DNA of 64,000 nucleotides, from assembly GCA_902778285.1 (NCBI GenBank), contig CACYXC010000012.1:21525-85524 (forward strand), given 5' to 3'. The position numbers and the translations under genes are program-made. Shown in pieces: positions 2,295 to 53,944 of the stretch (its first letter is position 1; each line of letters starts with the position of its first letter). The stretch is from Oscillospiraceae bacterium (GTDB lineage: Bacteria > Bacillota > Clostridia > Oscillospirales > Oscillospiraceae). Under the pieces are notes generated by a model. It saw nothing but the letters and a program-made list of their open reading frames with translations. It was not told the DNA's origin and searched no databases.

Positions 2295-2777
2295 TTGTTA
2301 CAGGTAAAGCTGATCTGCGTCGGGAAACTGCGTGAGCGCTTCTATATCGAGGCCTTTGAGGAGTACCGCAAGCGCCTCGGCGCGTTCTGCCGTCTGGAAT
2401 GTGCGGAAATCGCCGAGCAGCGTCTGCCCGACAGCCCCTCCGAAGCGCAGATCTGCGCGGCGCTCGAGCGGGAGGCGGAGGAGATCCTCAGGGCCGTCCC
2501 GAACGGCGCGTACCTGGTCGCCCTCTGTGTGGAGGGCAGGCAGATCCCGAGCGAGGGCATGGCGGAGCTGATCGCCGGCAGGGAAAACTCCGGCAAGCCG
2601 AAGCTCTGCTTCGTCATCGGCGGCTCCTTCGGGCTGAGCGACCGGGTGAAGAGCAGCGCCGATTTGCGCCTGAGCATGTCGAAAATGACCTTCCCGCACC
2701 ATCTGGCCCGCGTGATGCTGGGCGAACAGTTGTATCGGGGCTTTAAAATCAAAGAGGGAAGCCGTTATCACAAATAA
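2295..2777 (+). CDS. rlmH: 23S rRNA (pseudouridine1915-N3)-methyltransferase RlmH
   Basis: SPOUT-class methyltransferase that methylates pseudouridine 1915 in helix 69 of 23S rRNA using SAM. The 160-residue length is normal. The knot region shows FVIGGSFGLSDRV and LSMSKMTFPHHLARVMLGEQLYR, and the protein ends GSRYHK, the near-invariant RlmH tail. The start is TTG, placed 4 bases after the purine-rich GAAAGGAAAG; no in-frame ATG lies near the conserved beginning MLQVKLICVGKL. The last codons and the stop lie inside a terminator hairpin that has been duplicated by a family III element (2757-2976). Confidence 0.95.
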   Translation: MLQVKLICVGKLRERFYIEAFEEYRKRLGAFCRLECAEIAEQRLPDSPSEAQICAALEREAEEILRAVPNGAYLVALCVEGRQIPSEGMAELIAGRENSGKPKLCFVIGGSFGLSDRVKSSADLRLSMSKMTFPHHLARVMLGEQLYRGFKIKEGSRYHK

Positions 2778-2976
2778 CGGCGTCAAGGCTTTGAAAAACG
2801 ATACGTATGGAAGCCGGACGCGCATGGGGAGATTGTGAAGAGGGGATTGGTTATCCCCTCTTCACGTTCAATATCGACCGATTTTGAAACCGATTCAAGG
2901 TTTCTAAAATCGGAACGTCCGTGTGTGTCGATATTTCGTCGACACACACGGAAGCCGTTATCACAAATAATGGCTT
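2757..2976 (+). mobile_element. Terminator-embedded palindromic element, family III copy 1
   Basis: A 27-bp direct repeat (2757-2783 and 2950-2976, 25 of 27 identical) flanks a 166-base insert. The repeated segment is the rlmH terminator hairpin including the TAA stop, so the insertion left both the stop and a working terminator intact. The insert has a 12-bp perfect hairpin (2835-2846/2854-2865), a 14-bp near-perfect hairpin (about 2878-2912) and a 13-bp hairpin (2919-2931/2939-2951). It shares CGCATGGGGAGA and the following AGAGGGGATTGGTTAT loop region with copies at 50042-50249 and 53769-53944. The right end matches their terminal repeat well, the left end poorly. No coding sequence. Confidence 0.72.
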
Positions 2977-2985
2977 CCCTTTTTT
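2950..2985 (+). terminator. Rho-independent terminator of rlmH
   Basis: 12-bp stem with one G-U pair (GGAAGCCGTTAT / ATAATGGCTTCC), loop CACAA, followed by six T. This is the distal copy of the duplicated hairpin; the proximal copy at the rlmH stop has no T-run. Confidence 0.85.
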
Positions 2986-7644: not shown

Positions 7645-8820
7645 ATGGGGAGACTTGCAAAACGGATCCGGGGCGAGGCGCGCGTGGAGATCTTCGGCGT
7701 CTCTCCCGAAATGGTCGTCAACCGCTGCGCGGAAGCCGGTGTGACGCTGCGCCTCGTCAGCGCGGCGGACGGGCAGACCATCCGCTGCAGCGCAGACGAA
7801 AAAGATCTGGAGACCCTGCGCGCGCTGGCGCAGCGCTGTCAGTGTGAGCTGCGGCTGCTGTCCCTGCGCGGCGGGAGCCGGGACCGGCAGCTGCTTCGGC
7901 GGCGTATCTGGCTGCCGCTGACGGCGCTGCTCATGGCGGCGCTCCTGCTCTTGTCCTCACTTTTCGTGTGGGACGTCGAAATCATCGGCGCGGAGAACCT
8001 CAGCCGCGGGAAGATCCTGCGCGCTCTGGCCGAGGCCGGGGTGGAGCGCGGCTGCTTCTGGCCCGCGCTTTCCGCCGATCTGGTGCGCAGCCGCGCGCTG
8101 GCGGCGCTGCCGGAGCTGGCGTGGCTGACGGTGAATGTGAACGGCTCGCGCGCCGTCGTGCTGGCGGAGCCGCGGGCCGAAAAGCCGGAGATCTACCGCG
8201 AGAGCGAGGCCTGCTCCCTCGCGGCCTCTCACAGCGGGATCGTCCGCCGCGTATCGGCGCTCAACGGGCGGGCGCTGGTGCAGCCGGGGCAGGCCGTACA
8301 GGAGGGGGAGATCCTGATCGGCTCCATGCTCGACAGCCTGACAGGCCCCGAACGATACGTGCGCGCGAGAGGGGAGATCTGGGCCGACACCTGGTACGAG
8401 CTGACGGCGGTCTGCCCGCCCGCGGCGCGCGGCAAGGGCCCCGCCGCCGGAAAAACCCGGCGCGTGGGACTGAAAATCGGCGATCGAAGCATATTTTTTT
8501 ACGGAAAGAGTAGAAAGACGCTTGACGGATATGATAAAATCGTGCATGAATATAGCTTGGGGCTGAAGGGCCTTTTCGCCCTTCCGTTGAGTCTGCTCTG
8601 CGAGACCTGTACCCGCCGCGCGCCGGCGGAGCCGCAGGCGGCGGATACGCAGGCCATGCGGGAGCGGCTGGAGACGCAGCTGCGCGGGCAGATCGACGGG
8701 GAGATCGTCTCCCTGTCCTTCTCGGAGCTCGAGAGGGACGGCACCGTCTATGTGACGCTTCGCGCCCGCTGCTTTGAGAATATCGCGAAGATAACGCAGG
8801 CGGAGGAGACTTCGCCGTGA
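7645..8820 (+). CDS. yqfD: Sporulation protein YqfD
   Basis: 391-residue membrane protein of the sigma-E regulon, required for efficient sporulation in Bacillus but of unknown molecular role. An N-terminal cytoplasmic part (about 1-85) starts GRLAKRIRGEARVEIFGVSPE; one membrane helix follows (about 92-115, LPLTALLMAALLLLSSLFV); then come the conserved VWDVEIIGAENLSRGKIL and a long extracytoplasmic part with LVQPGQAVQEGEILIGS. The ATG follows yqfC by three bases. The stop overlaps the phoH GTG start by four bases. Confidence 0.92.
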   Translation: MGRLAKRIRGEARVEIFGVSPEMVVNRCAEAGVTLRLVSAADGQTIRCSADEKDLETLRALAQRCQCELRLLSLRGGSRDRQLLRRRIWLPLTALLMAALLLLSSLFVWDVEIIGAENLSRGKILRALAEAGVERGCFWPALSADLVRSRALAALPELAWLTVNVNGSRAVVLAEPRAEKPEIYRESEACSLAASHSGIVRRVSALNGRALVQPGQAVQEGEILIGSMLDSLTGPERYVRARGEIWADTWYELTAVCPPAARGKGPAAGKTRRVGLKIGDRSIFFYGKSRKTLDGYDKIVHEYSLGLKGLFALPLSLLCETCTRRAPAEPQAADTQAMRERLETQLRGQIDGEIVSLSFSELERDGTVYVTLRARCFENIAKITQAEETSP

Positions 8821-21471: not shown

Positions 21472-21625
21472 CTCTGACGAATCAGTCCTTTGAGGACTGA
21501 TTCGTCAGAGGGTTTCTCACGCTTATCGCACGAGGCGCGCGTGAAATGCGCCTCGTTTGGTCGGCGTGAGGCCTCGCATGGCTCGGCTCAGGGTGTTTTT
21601 GCCGAGGCGAAGCCCCGTCAAAAAC
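21472..21625 (+). repeat. Intergenic hairpin array, family I copy A
   Basis: Stem 1 is a perfect 18-bp hairpin (21472-21489/21493-21510, 3-base loop). Stem 2 CTCACGC/GCGTGAG (21516-21522/21564-21570) encloses TTATCGC, an 8-bp inner hairpin (21531-21538/21548-21555) and TTGGTCG. Stem 3 (21595-21601/21619-21625) follows the conserved GCTCGGCTCAGGGTG. Copies at 26927 and 28348 keep the single-stranded blocks but use different stem bases. No gene is seen in the 216 bases between rsmH and ftsL. Confidence 0.8.
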
Positions 21626-21686
21626 GAAATAACAACAATTAGGTTCACAAGACAGATACAGATGGTAACCGGAATAGGAGCCGGAT

Positions 21687-26926: not shown

Positions 26927-27127
26927 TAATCGTTCATCCCCCATAAGGGGACTGAACGATTAGAAAGCACCTGCGTTTATCGCACGGGGGAAACGCCTCG
27001 TTTGGTCGGCGCAGGGCCTCGCAGCGCTCGGCTCAGCGTGTTTTTGAAGCGGCGGAGCCGCCTCAAAAACGGATTAGACTTTGTTCCCGCCCTGCGAGGC
27101 GGGAATCAGAGGGGAGCGCCCCTCTGA
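26927..27127 (+). repeat. Intergenic hairpin array, family I copy B (five stems)
   Basis: Stem 1 26927-26936/26953-26962 (10 bp); stem 2 CCTGCG/CGCAGG (26970-26975/27010-27015) enclosing TTATCGC and TTGGTCG; stem 3 27040-27047/27063-27070; stem 4 27084-27091/27098-27105 with loop CTGCGA; stem 5 TCAGAGGGG/CCCCTCTGA (27106-27114/27119-27127). Stems 4-5 recur in the array at 2034-2223. It fills the 258-base mraY-ftsW gap. Confidence 0.8.
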
Positions 27128-28347: not shown

Positions 28348-28488
28348 TCAATTGTGAAACGCCGTTTCACAATTGAGCTGCTCGCTTTTATCGCGCTCGC
28401 CCCGCGTAAGACGGCTCGCTTGGTCGAAGCGAGGCCTCGCCAAGCTCGGCTCAGGGTGTTTTTGAGACGGCAAAGCCGCCTCAAAAAC
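28348..28488 (+). repeat. Intergenic hairpin array, family I copy C
   Basis: Stem 1 perfect 13-bp hairpin (28348-28360/28364-28376); stem 2 CTCGCTT/AAGCGAG (28381-28387/28427-28433) enclosing TTATCGC and TTGGTCG; stem 3 28458-28466/28480-28488 with an inner CGGC/GCCG pair. It starts five bases after the ftsW stop. Together with the family II element that follows, it accounts for the 366-base gap to murG. Confidence 0.8.
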
Positions 28489-28525
28489 AATTTGAATGGA
28501 AATATTGGCCTGACTGCGCCTTTCG

Positions 28526-28676
28526 CGATAATGATTATCGGATGGCGAAATCAATCGAGAATTCGATTGATTTCGCTGCCAAACGACAAGTTTGGCAGCG
28601 AATGATTCTTTGAATCATTCGCCCGATGCTCATTGCAATGAATATATGGCAAAACAGCTTCCTATAGTCATTATCG
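28526..28676 (-). mobile_element. Hairpin-chain MITE-like element, family II (internally deleted copy)
   Basis: Relative to the 35568-35771 copy this one is inverted and lacks the outer hairpins i, ii and half of iii. It keeps the terminal repeats (CGATAATGATTATCGGA at one end, TCCTATAGTCATTATCG at the other), the TCAATCGA/TCGATTGA-type hairpin, the TGCCAAAC/GTTTGGCA hairpin and the 11-bp GCGAATGATTC/GAATCATTCGC hairpin. No ORF of its own. Confidence 0.75.
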
Positions 28677-29897: not shown

Positions 29898-31151
29898 ATG
29901 GACATATGGCATATCCGCGGCGGCCGCCGCCTGGAAGGGAATTTGCGGGTGCAGGGCTCGAAGAATGCCTCTCTGCCCATTCTGGCGGCGAGCGTCCTCT
30001 GTCCGCTGCGCTGTGAGCTGCTGAACGTCCCGCGGCTGTCGGACACGGACGCGGCACTGCGCATCCTCGAACACCTGGGCTGCACGGTCGCGCGGGATCG
30101 GGACCGTGTGTACATAGATTCCACAACGCTCTCCTGCAGCGCCGTCCCCCACAGCCTGATGGCCGAGATGCGCTCCTCCGTGATTTTCATGGGGGCACTG
30201 CTGGCCCGCTGCGGGGAGGCGAGACTGAGCCTGCCCGGCGGCTGCCAGCTCGGCAAGCGCCCGATCGACCTGCATCTGGCTGCCCTGCGAAAGCTGGGGG
30301 CGGACATCGAGGAGGACGACAACGAGCTTCACTGCCGCGCGCGCCGTCTGCAGGGGACGGAGATCGCCCTGCCTTTCCCCAGCGTGGGCGCCACGGAAAA
30401 CGCCCTGCTGGCCGCCTGCGGCGCGAGAGGGGAGACGCTGATCCGCGGCGCCGCCCGCGAGCCGGAGATCGCCGCGCTGGCAGACTTTCTGCGCGCCATG
30501 GGCGCGGAGATCCGCGGCGCGGGGAGCGACACGATCCGCCTGACGGCCTTTCATCCGAAGAGAGACCTTTGCTTTCGCATCCCGTCGGACCGCATCGCGG
30601 CGGCGACCTTCGCCTGCGCCGCGGCGGGCTGCGGGGGCGACGTCACGCTCTGCGGCCTCGATCCCATACAAATTTCCGCCGTTCTCCACTTCCTAAATGC
30701 CGCGGGCTGTGATATAATAACATTTAATCATGCGCTGCGCCTGCGCGCCGACAGGCGGCTGCGCGCCGTCGGCCCCGTCGTCACCGCGCCCTATCCCGGC
30801 TTCCCCACGGACGCCCAGCCGCTGCTGATGGCGGCGCTGCTGCGCGCTGAAGGCAGGAGCCTGATCCGTGAGACGATCTTTGAGCAGCGCTTCCGGCAGG
30901 CGCCGGAGCTCTGCCGCCTCGGCGCGCAGATCCGCGTCAAGGGGCAGACGGCGGAGATCCTGGGCGTGAGAGAGCTGCACGGCGCCGCTCTGCACGCCAC
31001 CGATCTGCGCGGCGGGGCCGCCATGATCCTCGCGGGGCTGGCCGCCGGGGGCGAGACCGTGGTTCTGGACGAGGGGCATGTCCGCCGGGGCTATGAGGAC
31101 TTTGACCGCTCGCTGGAGAGTCTCGGCGCGGAGATCATCCTGGAAAACTGA
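29898..31151 (+). CDS. murA2: Second UDP-GlcNAc 1-carboxyvinyltransferase (MurA paralogue)
   Basis: 417-residue EPSP-synthase-fold enzyme, full length. Substrate Lys in VQGSKNASLPILAAS, catalytic Cys in LPGGCQLGKRPID, and VVTAPYPGFPTDAQP and DLRGGAAMILAGLAAGGE near the C-terminus. All catalytic residues seen in the first MurA are kept, so both are probably active. Firmicutes often have two MurA; finding one inside the dcw cluster between murG and ftsQ, where murB or murC is common, is noteworthy. The leader hairpin at 29853-29889 may control translation. Confidence 0.92.
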   Translation: MDIWHIRGGRRLEGNLRVQGSKNASLPILAASVLCPLRCELLNVPRLSDTDAALRILEHLGCTVARDRDRVYIDSTTLSCSAVPHSLMAEMRSSVIFMGALLARCGEARLSLPGGCQLGKRPIDLHLAALRKLGADIEEDDNELHCRARRLQGTEIALPFPSVGATENALLAACGARGETLIRGAAREPEIAALADFLRAMGAEIRGAGSDTIRLTAFHPKRDLCFRIPSDRIAAATFACAAAGCGGDVTLCGLDPIQISAVLHFLNAAGCDIITFNHALRLRADRRLRAVGPVVTAPYPGFPTDAQPLLMAALLRAEGRSLIRETIFEQRFRQAPELCRLGAQIRVKGQTAEILGVRELHGAALHATDLRGGAAMILAGLAAGGETVVLDEGHVRRGYEDFDRSLESLGAEIILEN

Positions 31152-31170
31152 CATGTTTTCGCCGATTGTA

Positions 31171-31312
31171 ATAATGACTATAGGATGGCGAAAAGCCAAA
31201 AAGCTTTTCGCCGCGCCGCCTTGCGGCGCAGCAAAACAGCGCGGCTGTTTTGCCATATATTCATTGCAATGAGCATCGGGCGAATGATTCAAAGAATCAT
31301 TCGCTGCCAAAC
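31171..31312 (+). mobile_element. Hairpin-chain MITE-like element, family II (3'-truncated copy)
   Basis: It starts with ATAATGACTATAGGATGGCG, then hairpins i (31187-31196/31203-31212, 10 bp), ii (31213-31219/31223-31229, 7 bp), iii (31231-31240/31244-31253, 10 bp) and iv (31280-31290/31294-31304, 11 bp), and breaks off inside hairpin v. The right terminal repeat is missing; the ftsQ ribosome binding site follows within 10 bases. Confidence 0.75.
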
Positions 31313-35200: not shown

Positions 35201-35542
35201 TCAGCCCATGAATTTGTCGATGGCCTCGTTGAGTGCGTGGAGATCGGCGCTGTCGCCGTCGCCAACGCAGTGCTCCAGATGGTCCTTGAGGATCACGCGG
35301 GCTGTGCTGCTCAGCGCGGAGCGCACCGCCGCGAGCTGCACCAGAACCTCGGTGCAGTCTCGCCCGTCTTCCACCATGCGCTTGACGGATTCCAGATGGC
35401 CGATCGCGCGGGAGAGGCGATTGAGCACCGCCCTGGTCTCGGTGTGCACATGACCGTGCGCATGCCCGGGCTCGACCGGATGGGCGTGCACGTGACCGTC
35501 CCCGTGGTCGTGGTAATATACTTCCTGCTCGTGTTCGTGCAT
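35201..35542 (-). CDS. CsoR-type metal-sensing repressor with His-rich N-terminal tail
   Basis: 113 residues. The DUF156 helical domain (about 36-113) carries Cys63, His88 and Cys92; the spacing C-x24-H-x3-C equals the Cu(I) ligand set of CsoR. The first 35 residues contain 11 histidines in HDH, HVHAH and HAHGHVH clusters, absent from ordinary CsoR, and could bind a second metal or buffer it. ATG 35542 is chosen because the frame upstream is only family II repeat. No copper exporter or metal gene is adjacent, so the regulon is unknown. Confidence 0.82.
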   Translation of the reverse strand: MHEHEQEVYYHDHGDGHVHAHPVEPGHAHGHVHTETRAVLNRLSRAIGHLESVKRMVEDGRDCTEVLVQLAAVRSALSSTARVILKDHLEHCVGDGDSADLHALNEAIDKFMG

Positions 35543-35567
35543 TGTTTCACTTTCTCTCGCTGACAGA

Positions 35568-35771
35568 ATAATGACTATAGGATGGCGAAAAGCCAAAAAG
35601 CTTTTCGCCGCGCCGCTTTGCGGCGCAGTAAAACAGCACGGCTGTTTTGCCATATATTCATTGAAATGGACATCGGGCGAATGATTCAAAGAATCATTCG
35701 CTGCCAAACATGTCGTTTGGCAGCGAAATCAATCGAATCCTCGATTGATTTCGCCATCCGATGATCATTAT
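35568..35771 (+). mobile_element. Hairpin-chain MITE-like element, family II (complete copy)
   Basis: 204 bp bounded by 23-bp terminal inverted repeats (35568-35590 and 35749-35771; 20 of 23 match), reading ATAATGA[C/T]NATNGGATGGCG inward. Inside are six consecutive perfect hairpins: GGCGAAAAGC/GCTTTTCGCC, GCGCCGC/GCGGCGC, AAAACAGC/GCTGTTTT, GCGAATGATTC/GAATCATTCGC, TGCCAAAC/GTTTGGCA and a 14-bp GCGAAATCAATCGA/TCGATTGATTTCGC. No transposase and no ORF of its own. No target duplication is clear. Confidence 0.82.
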
Positions 35772-50041: not shown

Positions 50042-50249
50042 AGCCCGGCGCTGTGCGCCGGGCTCAGTGTGTCGACAAAGTGTCGACAGCTTGAGCGGCA
50101 AAAATGGGAACTTTCGAAAAAGTTCTCATTTTTGAGAATATCAAACGCGAGAGGGAATAACCAATCCCCTCTCGCGCTCTCCCCATGCGAGTCCGACTTG
50201 CTCTGTATAGGTTTGTCTACAGTCTGAGCCCGGCGCTGTGCGCCGGGCT
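50042..50249 (-). mobile_element. Terminator-embedded palindromic element, family III copy 2
   Basis: A perfect 23-bp direct repeat (50042-50064 and 50227-50249), which is exactly the tatC terminator hairpin, flanks a 162-base insert. The insert ends CAGTGTGTCGACAAAG (50065-50080) and, on the other strand, CAGACTGTAGACAAAC (50226-50211): terminal inverted repeats meeting the direct repeat without a gap. The interior contains GTCGAC-type, ATGGGAACTTT/AAAGTTCTCAT-type and GCGAGAGGG/CCCTCTCGC hairpins. In reverse complement its core is identical over about 35 bases to copy 3. It covers most of the 347-base gap between tatC and nrfA; no ORF. Confidence 0.78.
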
Positions 50250-53768: not shown

Positions 53769-53944
53769 AAGTCCCGCAGCGTCCGCTGCGGGACTTCAGA
53801 CTGTAGACAAACCCATACAGAACAAGTCGGACTCGCATGGGGAGAGCGCGAGAGGGGACGGTAATCCCCTTTCGCGGTACAATCTGTGCAAAAGTCGACA
53901 CTTTGTCGACAGCTTGAAGTCCTGCAGCGTCCGCTGCGGGATTT
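53769..53944 (+). mobile_element. Terminator-embedded palindromic element, family III copy 3
   Basis: A 28-bp direct repeat (53769-53796 and 53917-53944; 26 of 28 identical) comprising the resC terminator hairpin flanks a 120-base insert. The insert begins CAGACTGTAGACAAAC and ends, in reverse complement, CAAGCTGTCGACAAAG; 12 of the first 15 bases match as inverted repeats. It shares the core GTCGGACTCGCATGGGGAGA with copy 2 (opposite orientation) and, in changed form, copy 1. It lacks the middle hairpin of the two longer copies. Confidence 0.78.

Follow-up and report, generated by a model that had tools for sequence, protein, structure and literature searches.

The window, by which we mean the whole 64,000-nucleotide stretch of DNA analysed here, contains a 162-bp non-coding insert 3′ of tatC, a gene identified by its profile match to TIGR00945. 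The exact borders of this insert are two identical 23-bp hairpins, AGCCCGGCGCTGTGCGCCGGGCT, which are copies of the tatC terminator (Table 1). A preliminary description of this DNA had reported an insert lying exactly between identical tatC hairpins, bearing terminal inverted repeats (TIRs) and leaving the host gene a terminator with its T-run; the same coordinates were found here, the TIRs were present as described, and the right hairpin copy precedes a T-rich tract. The insert is short and non-coding, carries TIRs, is flanked by a target duplication and occurs in high copy number, and was thus considered a MITE. The inverted half of its left end pairs fully in many copies of the element, although not in the tatC copy.

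Two further copies lie in the window. The copy after resC/ccsB (TIGR03144 match in profile searches) sits between hairpins of 28 bp each, as previously described, which differ from one another at two positions. For the copy after rlmH, duplicate hairpins of 27 bp had been claimed; a doubled, near-identical hairpin is indeed present, but its exact match covers 21 bp and only one end of the element is recognizable. The ends of this copy, which is old, were read by eye, and the end patterns of the script did not detect them.

Table 1. Elements of the tatC type in the window and the hairpins that border them.
Feature	Position	Strand	Remarks
Left copy of tatC terminator hairpin	50042..50064	.	Target duplication, 23 bp
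MITE	50065..50226	+	162 bp, without transposase gene
MITE left end	50065..50093	+	Terminal repeat CAGTGTGTCGACAAAG and inverted half
MITE internal hairpin, terminator-like	50099..50134	+	
MITE internal hairpin no. 2	50146..50176	+	CGCGAGAGGG...CCCCTCTCGCG
MITE right terminal repeat	50211..50226	+	GTTTGTCTACAGTCTG, common to IS1182-family elements
Right copy of tatC terminator hairpin	50227..50249	.	Followed by T-rich tract
Hairpin copy 1 after resC/ccsB	53769..53796	.	28 bp
MITE copy 2	53797..53916	-	120 bp as assembled
Hairpin copy 2 after resC/ccsB	53917..53944	.	2 mismatches relative to copy 1
Hairpin copy 1 after rlmH	about 2757..2781	.	
MITE copy 3	2782..2949	-	Degenerate; left end (minus strand) CGTGTGTGTCGACG..., opposite end eroded; by eye
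Hairpin copy 2 after rlmH	about 2950..2978	.	

The 208-bp tatC stretch was compared with the genome to which it belongs (G000, a 2.43-Mb draft in 76 contigs, 89% complete), giving 107 aligned pieces (40 of 181 candidates scored); the left-end motif matched this genome 125 times and the right-end motif 71 + 66 times. From among the matches listed, 78 stretches around element copies were taken, and these, together with the window copy, provided 66 copies with both ends found by pattern, copies with eroded ends or at contig ends being left out. Flanks of at least 18 bp were duplicated in 62 of the 66 copies, with an observed length of 22–43 bp, and all 62 duplicated sites had a hairpin on both sides, defined as at least six net pairs ending within 3 nt of the position. 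On a single side, the same detector scored a hairpin at 38 of 2000 random positions in the window and at 67 of the 2919 positions located 70–400 bp left of elements, so the association with hairpins goes beyond chance. The duplicated sequences are locus-specific hairpins, dozens of them unrelated to one another, and the earlier claim that the target duplication is the hairpin thus proved more general than the window could reveal.

Copies lacking a duplicated hairpin were few, just four of the 66 falling outside the rule by script, and these include L014, a nested copy that has a 26-bp hairpin duplication. Also exceptional are L017, where one hairpin is eroded, and L028, where the hairpins on the two sides differ, as expected from recombination between copies. 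At L070 (G000:C28, ~8140–8261), there is only a 6-bp duplication, AGTTCT, within a small palindrome, GGAAGTTCTTCC, and no flanking hairpin; this palindrome is possibly the smallest one used and may hint at how small a target can be. Arrays of the form hairpin-element-hairpin-element-hairpin were present at L034 and L038. Shortened copies of 106–145 bp have differing internal deletions that leave ~95–99 bp of one end, some with N runs. Treatment of these copies as a subfamily was dropped on account of the regular 95–99-bp remnants and the N runs, and their lengths, at own-genome loci among L047–L086, are probably the result of short-read assembly joins. They call for caution when MITE lengths are compiled from draft genomes.

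Other repeats occur in the window and near the elements. A separate interspersed repeat, ATAATGA(C/T)TAT...GGATGGCGAAA, is located at window positions 28501–28550, 31144–31193, and 35541–35590, and a stretch similar to it adjoins the element in L079. Another family, GCCTCG...GGCTCAG...GTGTTTTTG...CAAAAAC, is located at 21536–21631, 26981–27076, and 28399–28494; a similar part in L055 ends with GTTTATCAACAGTCTG and is then followed by a hairpin, so this repeat may be a further element of the hairpin type. At L057, L029, and L034, elements with the same ends as the MITE have a GTCATCCTGAG...GGATCT repeat inside or next to them, a repeat that is frequent in gut Bacillota.

Across the 62 duplicated sites, the duplication spans the hairpin from foot to foot, with A as its first base in 55 and T as its last base in 57, and an A lies just outside the two edges in 38 and 39 sites, respectively. 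Insertion had been described as occurring at the 3′ foot of a Rho-independent terminator, which did not hold up at this scale: T-runs were found only on the element’s strand at 12 sites, only on the other strand at 12, on both at 20, and on neither at 18, amounting to at least one side in 44 sites and none by our criterion in 18, and the element showed no orientation bias relative to the T-run (n = 62). The target is thus a palindrome without fixed sequence, used in either orientation, and not specifically a terminator 3′ foot. At L012 and at two loci from other genomes of the genus, L131 and L148 (G058:C21 and G051:C20), the hairpin copies have diverged in loop or stem with their pairing mostly intact, which suggests that both copies are kept as hairpins.

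Within the genus, the terminal repeat pattern CANNNTGTMGACAAASVVH was found in 34 of 61 genomes, G000 included, and a reversed control produced four matches in all. Thirty genus loci (L125–L154), among the matches listed, were read individually. In 20, the element lies between two copies of one hairpin, diverged in four cases (L131, L148, L151, and L152); in six, a contig end cuts the element or a hairpin is present on one side only; and the remaining four (L126, L128, L129, and L144) have no hairpin at the site and resemble chance pattern matches. The element families of the genus have unlike interiors, with script-measured lengths of 146–215 bp.

The element shares its ends, CARNNTGTMGACAAA, with insertion sequences of the IS1182 family. 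Scanning viral contigs recovered 40 right ends in 39 stretches, several of which represent the same site in related contigs, and 29 of the 40 ends are followed by a hairpin of at least six net pairs. The preliminary description had proposed looking for a full-length version that carries these ends, and two were obtained, L158 and L183, both ~1.5 kb, located between duplicated hairpins and bearing the end sequence TTTGTCTACAGTCTG. They encode proteins of 443 and 454 aa that matched NF033551 (IS1182 transposase) with 440 and 486 bits, against a cut-off of 270, and also matched PF05598 (DUF772), PF13751 (DDE_Tnp_1_6), and PF01609 (DDE_Tnp_1). Three acidic residues, D146, D273, and E400 (L183 numbering), are invariant in the transposase alignment and in our reading would constitute the catalytic triad of a DDE enzyme; a search of PDB sequences yielded no credible relative (one match, E 0.59). 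NF033551 matched 26 of the 61 genus genomes, exceeding the cut-off in nine, and gave no match in the own genome, an 89% complete draft, so we infer mobilization in trans from the relatives. At three genus loci (L208, L209, and L225), CAGACTGTAGACAAAG directly adjoins a hairpin beside partial IS1182 genes, which are at contig ends and below the NF033551 cut-off; the first ATG of the reading frame at L208 is 90 bp inside the element. A further genus locus, L224, holds a 1577-bp element with a split reading frame and a 32-bp hairpin duplication.

Named genomes were scanned with four aligned transposases, and the best 80 of 580 relatives, many from Bacillaceae and Enterococcus, were assessed. Of these IS1182 loci, 59 were hairpin-duplicated and eight were not, while in eight an end was not found and five were at contig edges; the hairpin was thus duplicated in 59 of 67 assessable loci among the best 80 of 580, in named Bacillota, with lengths of 18–42 bp. 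The 59 duplications begin with A in 51 cases and end with T in 52. A stricter script applied to the same set scored hairpin duplication in 52 of 80. Among the eight negative loci, L275 and L291 were scored negative by rule and look duplicated by eye; the named-genome exceptions also comprise non-matching flanks (L231, L264, L303, and L304), a 7-bp duplication (L277), and a spurious match (L243). Annotated plasmid and phage records (L306–L313) contained hairpin duplications in five of eight cases (30, 24, 24, 26, and 22 bp), with hairpins that differ between sides in L308 and left ends that were not found in L309 and L313. In the complete genome of Neobacillus drentensis JC05, the rule holds in seven of the seven copies listed. 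This, along with the phage records, argues against an artefact of short-read draft assembly, which the many 106–145-bp copies with varied internal deletions and occasional N runs might otherwise have indicated and which we regard as extremely improbable.

An insertion could be compared with its empty site in a pair of Streptococcus phages. In Javan87, an element of 1538 bp occupies a 26-bp hairpin that lies downstream of a peptidoglycan hydrolase gene, and Javan90 contains the same region without the element and with the hairpin present once. The flanks are identical over the 804 nt compared on the left and the 1500 nt compared on the right, and the two genomes differ in length by 1564 bp, exactly the sum of the IS (1538 bp) and one hairpin (26 bp); the insertion therefore duplicated one pre-existing hairpin. 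A comparable case among the MITEs is L014, in which a young MITE lies within the internal hairpin of an older one, the counterpart of the terminator-like internal hairpin of the window element, and that hairpin is now doubled. Among the 38 other loci in a set of 39, there are 29 that can be aligned over this target hairpin with no large insertion; the site thus held one hairpin before the young MITE inserted.

Comparison with empty sites, and a look for doubled hairpins that lack the insert, had been suggested at the outset; the single IS empty site found, that of Javan90, carries one hairpin. Flank searches for more IS empty sites returned only occupied sites, self-matches, and short partial flank matches, and three flank patterns used for MITE empty sites in viral contigs matched only occupied contigs. 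Matches to tatC orthologues were obtained in 19 of 61 genomes, the two nearest of which have, by eye, no comparable compact hairpin there. The hairpins might instead have been double beforehand, or have been doubled by recombination, the insert being later or accidental, and flanks that differ between sides at L028, L308, and L264 could be read in this way. For Javan87, such an origin is refuted by Javan90, and in general the duplication of dozens of unrelated hairpins speaks against it, leaving it a negligible probability.

Among known systems, the closest are IS1272 and TnSha1 of Staphylococcus, which likewise have an IS1182-family transposase and a hairpin target without primary sequence preference (PMC4923244, PMC5678879). 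In the available parts of these reports, hairpins, including several terminators, are the integration sites of IS1272/TnSha1 and are partly deleted without any duplication (Furi et al. 2016, PMC4923244), and the stem-loop is replaced by IS1272 (Wan et al. 2017, PMC5678879), whereas the elements described here keep and double the whole hairpin. The preliminary description knew of no bacterial miniature element that follows such a rule; the targeting of hairpins is on record for IS1272, which loses the hairpin (PMC4923244, PMC5678879). Siguier et al., as cited in the available part of Wan et al. 2017 (PMC5678879), noted that some IS1182 members target palindromes, and a survey, as far as its text was available, found IS1182 elements over-represented between convergent genes (PMC9208149), which fits a terminator target. 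Hairpin targeting as such is thus already known, and the hairpin-keeping mode and its scale are new. Among the titles and abstract openings listed from the open-licence literature, none described IS1182 elements or MITEs of this kind as duplicating hairpins. In the ISfinder tables, IS1182 duplications are reportedly widely variable, and curators may know the pattern.

The IS1182 elements of Bacillota with CAGACTG-type ends (Neobacillus, Enterococcus, and the IS1562-annotated Javan87 copy) have the same ends as the window element and make the same hairpin duplication; however, they are 1.5–2.2 kb and contain a transposase, unlike the non-coding window element with its 162 bp. They are likely the autonomous parents of the MITE. 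Other IS1182 branches differ: copies of ISCfr1 and copies from Sinorhizobium and Paraburkholderia, which annotations or published work place in the family (although one of three plasmid copies bears just the label “transposase”), have other ends (CTGTTGAA...) and no long hairpin duplication in the copies examined. Distant IS1182 copies on plasmids (L318–L323, from Proteobacteria and two from Staphylococcus) had no long direct repeat, and the element ends of L318–L320 were not identified. ISPse1 and ISCaa15, also IS1182 members, are listed with 4-bp duplications in the tables available (PMC3281130, PMC3196728).

The preliminary description had also pointed to the IS1202-like family, but it is IS1182 that carries the ends and makes the hairpin duplication. 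Mobilization of the MITE by an IS1202-like transposase, or by another of rve type whose duplications are long by nature, would draw on two genus elements with 26-bp duplications, L116 (G050:C45) and L118 (G053:C15), but these have TGTA-type ends and their targets are not full hairpins. NF033594, the sole ISNCY model used and presumably one that covers IS1202, matched 11 of 61 genus genomes, in every case below threshold and never in G000, and none of the matches examined had MITE ends as its own; this partner was set aside. As far as the published account was available, one group of the IS1202 family makes long target duplications of 16–28 bp, as here, at a target given as unknown, but the family has TGT ends and a different transposase (PMC10132070). 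TGT...ACA ends are absent from the MITE, whose ends, placed by the edges of the duplication, are CA...TG, and we consider an IS1202-like origin very improbable. L124 (G006:C19:1–1300) was likewise rejected as a source of the MITE transposase; its gene, IS481-like from a reading of protein and ends, is inside what looks like an element copy. This gene adjoins the same right end and was apparently inserted into the element. Group IIC introns share the preference for terminators, but are RNA-based and are not known to have a target duplication or terminal inverted repeats.

We thus interpret the tatC insert, with a probability of about 0.88, as a MITE that a DDE transposase of the IS1182 family, targeting palindromes and duplicating the hairpin whole, mobilizes in trans. 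Sequence comparison establishes the palindromic target, the whole-hairpin duplication, and the IS1182-type ends and transposase of the full-length relatives. With regard to mechanism, the palindrome would extrude as a cruciform, the two 3′ ends of the element would be joined to the two 5′ feet of the extruded cruciform, and repair of the gaps after strand transfer would leave a hairpin copy on each side. The joining at cruciform feet would make the duplication length follow the length of the hairpin instead of being fixed, would account for the absence of orientation bias, and would leave the outer hairpin copy with its T-run, making terminators near-harmless sites. Judged from sequence, the product matches what Wan et al. 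2017 drew as pathway b, a hypothetical hairpin duplication via the 5′ feet of a cruciform, of which no example was seen in the available part of that paper (PMC5678879); the cruciform step itself is presumptive.

The main rival to the cruciform step retains the same element and transposase, and proposes that a transposase dimer reads both arms of a palindrome that stays linear, cutting with a very long stagger at the arm ends. The A...T edges that prevail in the own genome and in the named genomes suggest that some local sequence is read, and the A frequent just outside both edges suggests that pairing can run on beyond the cut, both in keeping with a linear cut. However, a spacing of 18–43 bp that tracks stem length is hard to reconcile with a rigid linear complex, and the IS1272 work, in its available parts, also indicates secondary structure (PMC4923244, PMC5678879). 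We therefore consider a linear cut unlikely and prefer joining at the feet of a cruciform.

More broadly, we lean towards the view that the whole IS1182 branch with CAGACTG-type ends, together with the many seemingly unrelated MITE families that share these ends, read their target by shape, attack the four-way junction at the foot of an extruded cruciform, set the duplication length by the hairpin, and use terminators as safe harbours, since each gene is left with a terminator. An insertion that copies the hairpin to both sides may allow such elements to spread with little harm. Target duplications of DDE enzymes are normally short and of fixed length, given by how far apart the two active sites lie. 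A length set instead by the secondary structure of the target would make in-vivo cruciform extrusion readable from genomes and assayable by transposition. The same process would explain one origin of doubled terminators and of hairpin repeats scattered at gene ends. Within the IS1182 family, it would separate elements that keep the hairpin from those that lose it, two modes that may be compared enzyme by enzyme.
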